This document shows, in pieces, positions 6,755 through 37,813 of a stretch of 64,000 bases of DNA (positions are counted from its first letter, which is position 1; the number at the start of each line of letters is the position of its first letter). A program made the position numbers and the translations under genes. The notes below the pieces were generated by a model that was not told where the DNA came from, did no database searches, and saw only the letters and a program-made list of their open reading frames with translations. This stretch comes from an uncultured Gammaproteobacteria bacterium (GTDB lineage Bacteria > Pseudomonadota > Gammaproteobacteria > Arenicellales > JAANXG01): positions 31,363-95,362 of the forward strand of contig CAMYIN010000097.1 of NCBI GenBank assembly GCA_947258495.1, given 5' to 3'.

Positions 6755-6779
6755 TTACTTGACCATATTAGTCGGGTAT
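6755..6779 (+). promoter_or_regulatory. predicted Type 1 IscR binding site upstream of iscR-suf
   Basis: TTACTTGACCATATTAGTCGGGTAT matches the Type 1 consensus ATASYYGACTRWWWYAGTCRRSTAT at 23 of 25 positions by eye. Confidence 0.72.
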
Positions 6780-6861
6780 TTTACATTTCAATAAATCTGC
6801 CCCGTCATCCAATCGTTCTACGCGCCCGATGGTTTGGGCAGAGCAAGCAGGAGTCGCGACT

Positions 6862-7338
6862 ATGAGACTGACTACGAAAGGCCGTTACGCTGTCACCGCA
6901 ATGATGGATCTGGCAATACACGAGGTCTCCGGGCCGGTGACCTTGAGCGACATTGCCACGAGCCAAAATATTTCCCTGTCCTATCTGGAGCAGCTGTTCG
7001 CGGCGTTGCGTAAAGCCGGGCTGGTGAAGGGTCTGCGGGGGCCTGGAGGCGGTTATCGCTTGGCCATACCGGCGAGCGACATATCCGTTGCCGACATCAT
7101 TACCGCGGTTGACGAAAAAGTCGACGTCACGCGCTGTGGGGGTCGCGGGGACTGTCAAGACGGGCAGCCGTGTCTGACCCACGAGCTTTGGAAGGATCTG
7201 AGCCGCCAGCTGTATGAATTTCTCGACAAGATCAAGCTGGGTGAACTGACTCAGTGGCCCTGCGTGCAGGAGAGGTCACAGCAGCAGGACGTGCGCCTGG
7301 GCCGCGTCGGTACCGCGTCTTCCAACGCTTCCGTCTGA
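6862..7338 (+). CDS. iscR: Rrf2-family Fe-S regulator, IscR type
   Basis: [18 protein letters not shown]; from this Met the cysteines fall at C92, C98, C104 and a His at 107, identical numbering to the E. coli IscR cluster ligands; heads the SUF operon. Confidence 0.88.
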
Positions 7339-7353
7339 GGTCACCGAGCGATC

Positions 7354-8817
7354 GTGACGGAGCGTGCACCGGTGACGAGTCCTGCGAACGACCTCGACCG
7401 GCTGGTCGGTCGGGAGTACAAGGAGGGTTTCGTCACAGAAATCGATGCCGAGACTTTGCCCCCGGGCCTCAACGAGGACGTGGTGCGCGCGATTTCGGAA
7501 AAAAAGCGGGAGCCGGCGTTCATGCTGGAGTGGAGGTTGCAGGCGTACCGCCACTGGCTGACGATGCGCGAGCCCCGGTGGGCCCAGGTGCAGTATTCGC
7601 CGATCGATTATCAGGCCATCAGCTACTATTCCGCTCCCAAGCAGACGCCCGGTCCCAAGAGCCTGGAGGAGGTGGACCCCAAGCTGCTCGAGACCTATGA
7701 AAAACTGGGTATCCCCCTCGAAGAACAAAAGGCGCTTGCGGGCGTGGCTGTGGACGCCGTTTTCGACAGCGTGTCGGTGAAAACCACGTTTCGCAACACG
7801 CTCGCGGAGGCGGGAGTCATCTTTTGCTCCATCTCCGAGGCGTTGCAGGAGCATCCCGAGTTGGTGCGGCGATACCTGGGTTCGGTCGTGCCGCAGGGTG
7901 ACAATTTTTACGCCGCACTAAATTCCGCGGTATTCAGCGACGGTTCTTTTGTTTACATTCCCAAGGGTGTTCGCTGCCCCATGGAGTTGTCGACGTATTT
8001 TCGCATCAACGCCATGAACACCGGCCAGTTTGAACGCACGCTGATCATCGCCGACGAGGGCAGCTACGTCAGTTATCTCGAGGGTTGCACGGCGCCCATG
8101 CGCGACGAGAACCAGCTGCACGCGGCCGTAGTGGAGTTGATCGCCCTGGAAAACGCGCAGATAAAATATTCCACCGTGCAGAACTGGTATCCCGGTGACG
8201 AGCTCGGGCGGGGAGGAATCTACAACTTCGTCACCAAGCGCGGCGCGTGCCGGGGCCACCGTTCGAAGATTTCCTGGACCCAGGTGGAGACGGGTTCCGC
8301 CATCACCTGGAAGTATCCGAGTGTGCTCCTCGAGGGCGACGGCTCCGTGGGTGAGTTTTATTCCGTGGCCCTGACGAACAATCGGCAGCAGGCCGACACC
8401 GGCACCAAGATGATACACATCGGAAAGAACACCGCGAGCACGATCATTTCCAAAGGCATCTCCGCCGGACACGGTCAGAACACCTACCGTGGATTGGTGA
8501 AAGTGCTGAGCGGATCGGATAACGCGCGCAATTACTCACAATGCGATTCGCTGTTGCTGGGCGATCGCTGCGGCGCACACACCTTCCCCTACGTCGAGGT
8601 GAAAAACCCTACAGCCCGGGTGGAACACGAGGCTACGACGTCCAAGATCAGCGACGATCAACTGTTCTATTGTCGACAGCGGGGGTTGTCCGAGGAGGAT
8701 GCGGTGTCCATGATCGTAAACGGATTCTGTAAAGAAGTATTCAGGGAACTGCCCATGGAGTTCGCCGTGGAGGCGCAGAAGCTTCTGGATGTGAGCCTGG
8801 AAGGGGCGGTCGGCTAG
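7354..8817 (+). CDS. sufB: Fe-S cluster assembly protein SufB
   Basis: 487 aa; [54 protein letters not shown]. Confidence 0.97.
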
Positions 8818-35521: not shown

Positions 35522-36406
35522 ATGACCCGGGTGTTTATCGTCGGTTGCGGCTATGTGGGAACACGACTCGCGCAGGAGTGGCTGAGGCGCGGCGCCGCGG
35601 TCGCCGCGCTCGCGCGCAGCGACACCGCTGCCGCGCGCTTGCAGCGACTCGGCATTTCACCCGTCGCCGGCGACCTGGGGGACGTCTGGAGCCTGCGACG
35701 CCTGGCGCTGCGGGACAGCCTGCTGTACTACCTGGCGCCGCCACCGCCTTCCGGTGTTGCCGACACCTGGATGCGCTGCTTTGTGTCCGCACTCAGGACA
35801 TCGCGTCTGCCCGGACGATGCGTGTTACTCGGCACCACCGGGGTATACGGCGATCACCGCGGCGGATGGATAGACGAGAACGCGGAGCTGCGGCCGGGTT
35901 CCGACCGTTCGCGGAGACGTTTGGATGCGGAGCGGGTCCTGAGGGCGTGGGGCCGGGTGTGGCGGGTCCCCGTCGTGGTGCTGCGGGTGGCGGGTATATA
36001 CGGACCCGAAAGGCTGCCGTTGCAGCGCCTGCGGGCCGGCGCTCCGCTTGTGCGTGAGCAGGAGTGCCCGTTCACGAACCGGATACACGTGGACGATCTG
36101 GTCGCAGCCTGCGTCGCCGCAGGAGAGCGCGGTCGCGCCGACAACGTATACAATGTCAGCGACGGTGATCCATGCACTATGACCGCCTATTTCAACTCCG
36201 TGGCGGACGCGGTTGGATTACCGCGACCGCCGCAGGTGCCAATGCGGCAGGCCCGGCAGCACATGACGCCGGCCATGCTCGCCTACCTCGCCGAATCCCG
36301 GCGCCTGTGCAACCACAAGCTGGTACAGGAGCTCGGTCTCGAACTGCGTTATCCAACGCTGGCGGAGGGTCTCGGCGCGATCTGTGAACACAAAAAAAAA
36401 GGGTAG
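35522..36406 (+). CDS. NAD-dependent epimerase/SDR protein (YeeZ-like)
   Basis: MTRVFIVGCGYVGTRLAQEWLRRG; LGTTGVYGDHRGGWIDE; VVVLRVAGIYGPERLPLQRL. Confidence 0.9.
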   Translation: MTRVFIVGCGYVGTRLAQEWLRRGAAVAALARSDTAAARLQRLGISPVAGDLGDVWSLRRLALRDSLLYYLAPPPPSGVADTWMRCFVSALRTSRLPGRCVLLGTTGVYGDHRGGWIDENAELRPGSDRSRRRLDAERVLRAWGRVWRVPVVVLRVAGIYGPERLPLQRLRAGAPLVREQECPFTNRIHVDDLVAACVAAGERGRADNVYNVSDGDPCTMTAYFNSVADAVGLPRPPQVPMRQARQHMTPAMLAYLAESRRLCNHKLVQELGLELRYPTLAEGLGAICEHKKKG

Positions 36407-36426
36407 GCGCGTGGCCTACCCTTTTC
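36392..36426. terminator. bidirectional intrinsic terminator
   Basis: AAAAAAAAAGGGTAGGC-gcgtg-GCCTACCCTTTTCT: strong GC stem flanked by A-run and T-run, between convergent genes; the epimerase stop codon lies inside the stem. Confidence 0.85.
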
Positions 36427-36448
36427 TAGCAACCGCTGCGTGTGCGTG

Positions 36449-37120
36449 TTACTTGCTGGCTTCCGTCGGCTGGGTCTGAGTCACGTTGCCCCAAGTCGCG
36501 GGATCGAACCAGTTGAAGCCGCCGGCAGAGGAGACGTCGACGCCCGGAATGCTGTACGCCGCGGGATTCATCCACTGCATGTACGTCATCGGGTTCATGA
36601 ACGCGGCGTAGTTCGCAGGGTTCATGCCCTGGAAGTACTGTGTCGGCTCCATCACGTGCGCATAGGCGCCCGGATTCATCCAGTACAGGTAGTTCGCCGG
36701 GTTAAGAAAGGCGGAGTACGAAGCGGGATTCATCCACGCCAGCCAGTTATTGGGGTTCATAAACTGCATGTAGAACTGCGGCGTCATGAACTGCGCGTAG
36801 GTCGCCGGATTGGTGAAAGCGCGGTGCGCGGAGGCGTGGGTCGCGGGATCAAAAAAGATCGCCCAACCGGCCGGATGGGCTGGATTGAACTGCATGGGGG
36901 TCGTCGTCGCAGCGCCGGTGCTCCATGTGGAGGGATCAAACCAGTTGACGGCTCCGCCCGCGGCTTGATCGCCGTACAGGTTGGTCCAGCTGCTGGGGTC
37001 AAAGGGATTGGGTACGGCGGTCGGCTGCTGCTGCGTCTGGCTGGCCTCTTCGGCGGCGTGCACCGGGCTGAGGGTACTGAGCAACGCGAACAAGGCCGCG
37101 GCAAGTGTGGACTTAAACAT
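36449..37120 (-). CDS. secreted nonapeptide-repeat protein of unknown function
   Basis: 223 aa; signal peptide (MFKSTLAAALFALLSTLSPVHA), strong GGAGG RBS, ten consecutive 9-residue repeats M-N-P-x-x-[YW]-x-x-[FW], flanking NxFDPxxW motifs. Confidence 0.88.
   Translation of the reverse strand: MFKSTLAAALFALLSTLSPVHAAEEASQTQQQPTAVPNPFDPSSWTNLYGDQAAGGAVNWFDPSTWSTGAATTTPMQFNPAHPAGWAIFFDPATHASAHRAFTNPATYAQFMTPQFYMQFMNPNNWLAWMNPASYSAFLNPANYLYWMNPGAYAHVMEPTQYFQGMNPANYAAFMNPMTYMQWMNPAAYSIPGVDVSSAGGFNWFDPATWGNVTQTQPTEASK
36545..36814 (-). repeat. 10 x 27-bp (9-codon) tandem repeat array within the CDS
   Basis: TNPATYAQF/MTPQFYMQF/MNPNNWLAW/MNPASYSAF/LNPANYLYW/MNPGAYAHV/MEPTQYFQG/MNPANYAAF/MNPMTYMQW/MNPAAYSIP. 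Confidence 0.93.
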
Positions 37121-37324
37121 GTTACATATCCTCCGATTTTAGTAAATGAGCCCTAGAGAAGTTGAAAATATTAATATATAAGGAATGTCTAATATAACAG
37201 GATTAAAAACCAAAACCACCCTTTACTCAAGGACAATGGAGATAACGACTTGCTCCAATGGGGAGATGCAACTTAGACTTGTTATATCACTTTTGGGATA
37301 GATGACCGCGAAGAGGGCCGAAAC

Positions 37325-37813
37325 TTGGACAAAAAAATCTGGTGGGGCGCAATCACACTGGCGTCGCTGGTCACCGCGACATTGGGCTGGAACCTGGTCG
37401 GCAACGAGCACAGTTCCGCATCCCTCGATCCATCGTCCGCTGCCGCCACGGCTGCGGTGAAGACCCAGGCGGCGCCGGCGCCGGCCGACGCGCAGACGCC
37501 GGTCGCGGAAATCGACGAACTGGCCACGCCGGCCCGAGACTTGCGCGCGCCCGCCGCCTCCCTGTCGCAACGCGCGGGCTCCCAGGCGGCTTCGGCGCTG
37601 GCACAGCGCCAGCGCGCCGCGTTGCAGCTGCGCAAGGCCGATGTCGCCGCAGCCGGGCCCGTGGGTGTGGGGCCTGCGGAGGCGTGCTTCAACCAGATGA
37701 AGACCGTCTTCTGTCCCATTATCGCCCAAATGCCCTTCGTTCGTGATGTCGCCGGGCAGGTGGCGCTGTGGGGGCGATTCGACTGTCCGGTCGGCGTGAC
37801 GCCGAAGATCTAG
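37325..37813 (+). CDS. hypothetical membrane-anchored/exported Ala-rich protein with C-terminal cysteines (TTG start)
   Basis: 162 aa; N-terminal hydrophobic segment WWGAITLASLVTATLGW, Ala/Pro-rich linker, C-terminal ACFNQMKTVFCPIIAQMPFVRDVAGQVALWGRFDCP. Confidence 0.65.
   Translation: MDKKIWWGAITLASLVTATLGWNLVGNEHSSASLDPSSAAATAAVKTQAAPAPADAQTPVAEIDELATPARDLRAPAASLSQRAGSQAASALAQRQRAALQLRKADVAAAGPVGVGPAEACFNQMKTVFCPIIAQMPFVRDVAGQVALWGRFDCPVGVTPKI

Follow-up and report, generated by a model that had tools for sequence, protein, structure and literature searches.

The window, the whole stretch of 64,000 nucleotides analysed here, contains on its reverse strand a gene (positions 36449-37120) with an ATG start, encoding a protein of 223 residues that we call the type-A Asn-Pro nonapeptide-repeat (NPR) protein. 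The assignment follows from the open reading frame, the orthologues and the dN/dS ratios. Same-genus orthologues are 70-74% identical to the window protein, and the dN/dS of 0.08-0.25 across six orthologues indicates a real gene under purifying selection. A GGAGG Shine-Dalgarno sequence (37130-37134, reverse strand) is read directly 9 nt upstream of the ATG; a preliminary description of this DNA had stated a strong RBS. The same description assigned the gene its own terminator. A terminator-like hairpin of 14 pairs followed by a T-run does lie 3′ of the gene (36395-36427, reverse strand) and is the sole such site that the scan found in the region, but shuffled sequences average 1.2 sites, so the scan alone is weak.

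The N-terminal 22 residues (37055-37120, reverse strand) form a putative Sec signal peptide, read by inspection as MFKSTLAAALFALLSTLSPVHA, with the junction at SPVHA/AEE, and the hydrophobic N-terminus is conserved in the orthologues. Residues 103-192 (36545-36814, reverse strand) divide without gaps into the ten 9-residue units originally listed, with the consensus MNPxxYxxF/W, as seen by direct reading and in the array counts of the orthologues. Three related motifs flank the array, all of them as described before: NPFDPSSW (residues 38-45, 36986-37009) and NWFDPSTW (residues 59-66, 36923-36946) precede it, and NWFDPATW (residues 203-210, 36491-36514) follows it, each on the reverse strand and read directly. 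The latter two also appear in the family consensus, in which DPxxW recurs. Chance does not account for the 9-residue period: at lags 9, 18 and 27 the mature chain has an identity autocorrelation of 0.219, 0.197 and 0.207, whereas the maximum at any lag from 3 to 30 in 2000 shuffles was 0.164.

The gene is accompanied by a TlpA-like thioredoxin gene at a distance of 0.8 kb, a TauE-like permease gene a few kb away, in surroundings that six related contigs conserve, and an RND pump gene; no core sulfur gene was noted near this copy. Divergent from the NPR gene, a small ORF on the forward strand (37325-37813) encodes a putatively secreted or membrane-anchored protein; inspection relates it to a cluster (L044_10) that five related contigs conserve.

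The NPR arrays are rich in Met, Tyr, Trp and Phe and almost uncharged; the window array has one charged residue in 90 (1%), the whole window protein contains no Cys, and the Kyte-Doolittle GRAVY is -0.43. All of the long-array orthologues examined retain the 9-residue period; neither of the two outcomes that the first reading had named as refuting it, loss of this period in the orthologues or a significant match to a characterised repeat family, was encountered. Among 37 type-A proteins that were aligned, 28 have 10 or 12 units in their longest unbroken array, and the strict counting rule partly explains why the others have fewer.

Prediction with AlphaFold2 (37 sequences) renders the array of the window protein as successive short helices, mostly of 7-8 residues, one per 9-mer and each beginning at Asn-Pro. 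A 12-unit orthologue gives the same pattern with lower confidence. The array may be a short-helix solenoid, with one Asn-Pro-started helix in each unit. The solenoid that had been suggested from the sequence receives weak support in this respect: one helix per unit is predicted and the array has a pLDDT of 80-89, but the pTM of the model is 0.45. Foldseek searches of the PDB and BFVD returned no similar fold.

How widespread is this protein? The window protein exceeded the cut-off of no Pfam or NCBIfam model and matched no PDB sequence, a literature search turned up no sulfur protein with Asn-Pro repeats among the papers covered, and a search of plasmids gave no match. The first reading had recognised no characterised family, and none emerged from these searches; NPR appears by sequence to be an undescribed protein family. 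The JmjN model (PF02375) scored 11.7 bits against a cut-off of 26, with a maximum of 24.9 in a paralogue, and shares only a short Pro-aromatic resemblance; the oligopeptide-binding-protein and nucleoprotein identities were likewise set aside, their matches being sub-threshold only.

With the window protein as the query, 26 of 145 genomes (the window genome included), from 11 genera, gave matches, and 25 of the 144 relatives carry one to four members each. An NPR profile was positive in 6 of 274 genomes of an even sample of the class, and the window genome was the sole positive in a sample of the phylum (n = 399), where the listed genomes were again of the same class. The positive records include uncultured Gammaproteobacteria MAGs, MAGs of the Arenicellales and Chromatiales, Marine bacterium B5-7 and the Olavius algarvensis Gamma 3 endosymbiont. 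Among the genomes sampled, the family is found only in gammaproteobacteria that are predicted to oxidise sulfur.

Reading of the sequences separates four kinds, and none of the proteins tested exceeded a Pfam or NCBIfam cut-off. Type A has the long array, as in the window; type B is Met-rich with fewer repeats; type C, of about 235 residues, has a charged N-terminal segment followed by Asp/Asn-Pro repeats; and type D comprises short proteins that combine Asn-Pro motifs with a single CxxCH haem motif. The window genome has four members, further copies having first come to light in a pattern search: besides the window gene, a second long-array protein lies on contig C178 and two divergent ones on C28. 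Convergent, sequence-divergent type B and C paralogues are seen in this same genome at L009:5731-6438(+) and 6770-7567(-). Elsewhere, a fragment of a Met-Pro-Gly-Gly repeat protein (L114:1-261) lies upstream of type C and A genes.

The type D proteins, monohaem cytochromes c with Asn-Pro repeats (NP-cytochromes), were found by direct search in seven relatives, all NPR-positive, and in six of the seven their genes directly adjoin an NPR match; none was detected in the window genome, which is 74% complete. One contig (L099) encodes a 331-residue version with a long Met-Asn-Pro tract. Secreted monohaem (CxxCH) proteins carrying Met/Asn-Pro or Met-Pro-Gly repeats occur at L099:7595-8590(-), L088:14323-14778(+), L062:11107-11679(+), L121:407-829(+) and L122:1471-2118(-); the three that were tested had no Pfam or NCBIfam match. 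These proteins may be a redox-active partner of NPR. In several genomes, including the window genome (L010), genes for Spy/CpxP-like periplasmic chaperones lie directly downstream of NPR genes, with NF007769 scoring below its cut-off; this neighbour is not a homologue but perhaps serves as a chaperone for NPR proteins. Spy/Metal_resist-like genes with Met-Pro-rich N-termini occupy this downstream position at L010:5649-6293(+), L092:7504-8019(-) and L079:11763-12386(+).

The window genome itself carries sulfur-oxidation genes. It carries dsrA (C134), an operon on C29 for DsrE, DsrF, DsrH, DsrC, DsrL-like, DsrO, DsrN-like and IscA-like proteins, SoxB and DsrE2 on C14, and also SoxY. DsrEFH is a feature of sulfur oxidisers and indicates the oxidative direction (PMC5733100); the window organism has an oxidative dsr operon together with soxB. 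Across the relatives, dsrA exceeded the cut-off in all 26 NPR-positive genomes, as compared to 71 of 145 overall (hypergeometric 5e-10, phylogeny ignored), and the four further NPR-positive genomes from the class-wide sample also have dsrA, giving 30 of 30. The reverse does not hold, as 45 of the 71 dsrA-positive genomes are missing the family. Moreover, the control gene for PhaC co-occurs in about 25 of the 26 NPR-positive genomes versus 67 of 145 overall. The co-occurrence with dsrA alone is therefore not specific, and we dropped it as sole proof. Proximity discriminates between the two: phaC lies within 10 kb of none of the 64 NPR genes, despite 62 phaC-like targets, and gene proximity was kept as evidence for this reason. 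Thirteen of the 64 NPR genes, from eight genomes and four taxonomic families, have soxY, dsrA or fccB no more than 10 kb away, where at most 0.97 would be expected if relatedness is ignored. The short MAG contigs make this linkage an underestimate wherever a contig ends.

The gene order is the decisive evidence that ties NPR to sulfur oxidation, and it is repeated in unrelated families. In the f2 genomes (L090, L091), soxB, a SoxW-like thioredoxin gene and NPR are consecutive and are followed by dsrABEFHCMKL. In the f7 genome (L088, L089), soxXYZA, a SoxW-like thioredoxin gene, a type B NPR gene and a type D NP-cytochrome gene are consecutive, with dsrA about 10 kb further on, and a relative (L116) has the similar order soxXYA-NPR-NP-cytochrome. 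An Arenicellales MAG (L096) has the order ATP sulfurylase/NPR/nap/fccAB/NPR/NPR, plus dsr-like genes; NPR genes adjoin soxYZ in L099, and DsrE2 and SoxW-like thioredoxin genes in the f8 genomes (L095, L100, L101). Among these neighbours, examples of SoxY, SoxZ, FccB, ATP sulfurylase, SoxB and DsrE2 were verified by HMM, while several other names rest on reading of the sequence. Truncated Sox systems without SoxC accumulate sulfur, and SoxC exceeded the cut-off in none of the type-A genomes, a difference that is not significant (p 0.09). Other genes share these neighbourhoods: a secreted DUF302-domain protein is encoded beside NPR and sox genes at L091:13305-14039(-) (by Pfam) and L099:8669-9679(-) (by inspection), and FadL/OmpP1-like outer-membrane proteins, recognised by inspection, are encoded in several families close to sox or NPR genes (L095:8898-10034, L112:16578-17936, L111:4789-6006).

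We propose, with a probability of roughly 0.6, that the window NPR protein, exported by the Sec route, has a structural role in sulfur storage in the periplasm of a chemotrophic, sulfur-oxidising gammaproteobacterium, where it coats or organises the sulfur. The data show the repeats, the family, its genomic tie to sox, dsr and fcc genes and the sulfur-oxidation genes of this genome; that the protein is exported, resides in the periplasm, touches sulfur, acts as a coat and folds as modelled is what we infer here. The periplasmic Sox and flavocytochrome c chemistry would produce zero-valent sulfur, which several NPR paralogues would coat or organise, as SgpA-D do in Allochromatium, and which would later be oxidised in the cytoplasm through the reverse Dsr pathway. 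Within each 9-mer, Met and aromatic residues keep to set positions and could provide a non-polar surface for sulfur or for the packing of coat proteins.

The gene order also suits another arrangement, in which NPR would be a scaffold that holds the Sox, Fcc and cytochrome c partners, or an electron conductor, rather than a sulfur coat. NPR genes are indeed interleaved with soxXYZA, soxB, soxW and fccAB, and the NP-cytochrome genes adjoin them in six of the seven relatives that have such cytochromes; on the other hand, the lack of a detected NP-cytochrome in the window genome (74% complete) speaks against this role, and the many paralogues with near-zero charge resemble a coat more than an enzyme scaffold. 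We therefore consider it unlikely. That the coat covers a different mineral or polymer, periplasmic or extracellular (for example, extracellular sulfur, carbonate or metal sulfide), would draw on the same genomic evidence, and export beyond the periplasm is possible, but no mineral-specific genes were seen nearby and periplasmic sulfur is the simplest target in a sox/dsr context, so that this reading is improbable.

A surface location had been raised as well, as the repeat was thought to be adhesive. A secreted, repetitive and aromatic-rich protein could act as an adhesin or as a biofilm or matrix component; nevertheless, neither a cell-wall anchor nor an outer-membrane domain nor a partner dedicated to secretion was seen for NPR, the array is mostly fixed at 10 or 12 units, unlike the variable repeats of adhesins, and the neighbours are sulfur genes. 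The surface-adhesive function thus gained no support, the genomic context, which lay outside the view of the preliminary description, pointing instead to periplasmic sulfur oxidation and storage, and we regard it as improbable. The secreted repeat protein and assembly scaffold of that description are supported. Finally, the co-occurrence with PhaC would suit a coat of polyhydroxyalkanoate granules, phasin-like or otherwise, but these granules are cytoplasmic while the NPR proteins bear putative signal peptides, and the absence of phaC within 10 kb of any NPR gene leaves this assignment barely credible.

For chemosynthetic bacteria, animal symbionts included, sulfur globules serve as a major energy store, yet most of what is known of the proteins that coat them comes from a single purple sulfur bacterium (PMC10386293). 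As an undescribed repeat family present in multiple copies and tied to sox, dsr and fcc genes in uncultured lineages, with the Olavius algarvensis Gamma 3 symbiont among the relatives, NPR would offer a sequence marker for sulfur storage. It would also be a tractable, regular repeat for structural work and give the Met/Asn-Pro cytochromes a testable role. Beyond the sulfur-coat reading itself, NPR might, as a rather unlikely extension, be a second, unrelated sulfur coat built as a short-helix solenoid, which in some lineages contains haem through the adjacent NP-cytochromes c. Such a haem-containing coat would pass electrons between the stored sulfur and the respiratory chain, although the idea that these cytochromes connect sulfur stores to electron transport is speculation.

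Two known systems invite comparison. The RTX proteins are also secreted and have a nine-residue tandem repeat, but their calcium-binding Gly/Asp repeats fold as a parallel beta-roll, and type I secretion exports the proteins by means of a signal at the C-terminus (PMC6891781), whereas NPR has Asn-Pro, Met and aromatic residues, is predicted to be helical and has an N-terminal signal peptide, as read by inspection; the consensus MNPxxYxxF/W and the helical model place it outside the RTX family. The periplasmic sulfur globules of Allochromatium vinosum have the exported, repetitive proteins SgpA-D, whose structure is unresolved, and a genome may hold between 1 and 6 sgp genes (PMC10386293). Since sgpD lies beside a hydrophobic/amphiphilic exporter gene (PMC10386293) and RND pump genes are found close to some NPR genes, we considered whether NPR is SgpD; the published P-X2-P-X2-P pattern and the near-restriction of SgpD to Chromatiaceae do not fit. 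NPR differs from the Sgp proteins in its strict Asn-Pro/aromatic period, its Met-rich composition and its size (about 22 kDa when mature, as compared to 11-13 kDa for SgpA-C). SgpA-C are called “extremely hydrophobic” (PMC10386293); NPR, despite the 1% of charged residues in its array, misses this description on the Kyte-Doolittle scale, given the GRAVY of -0.43. The window NPR gene and sgpD both appear to form their own transcription unit with a terminator, and both families occur in sulfur oxidisers with reverse Dsr, as judged for NPR from the genes. NPR shares with the Sgp proteins the putative Sec export signal, the repetition, the regularly spaced Pro residues, the multiple paralogues per genome and the genomic setting, and from these common features we infer its role in coating or organising sulfur.
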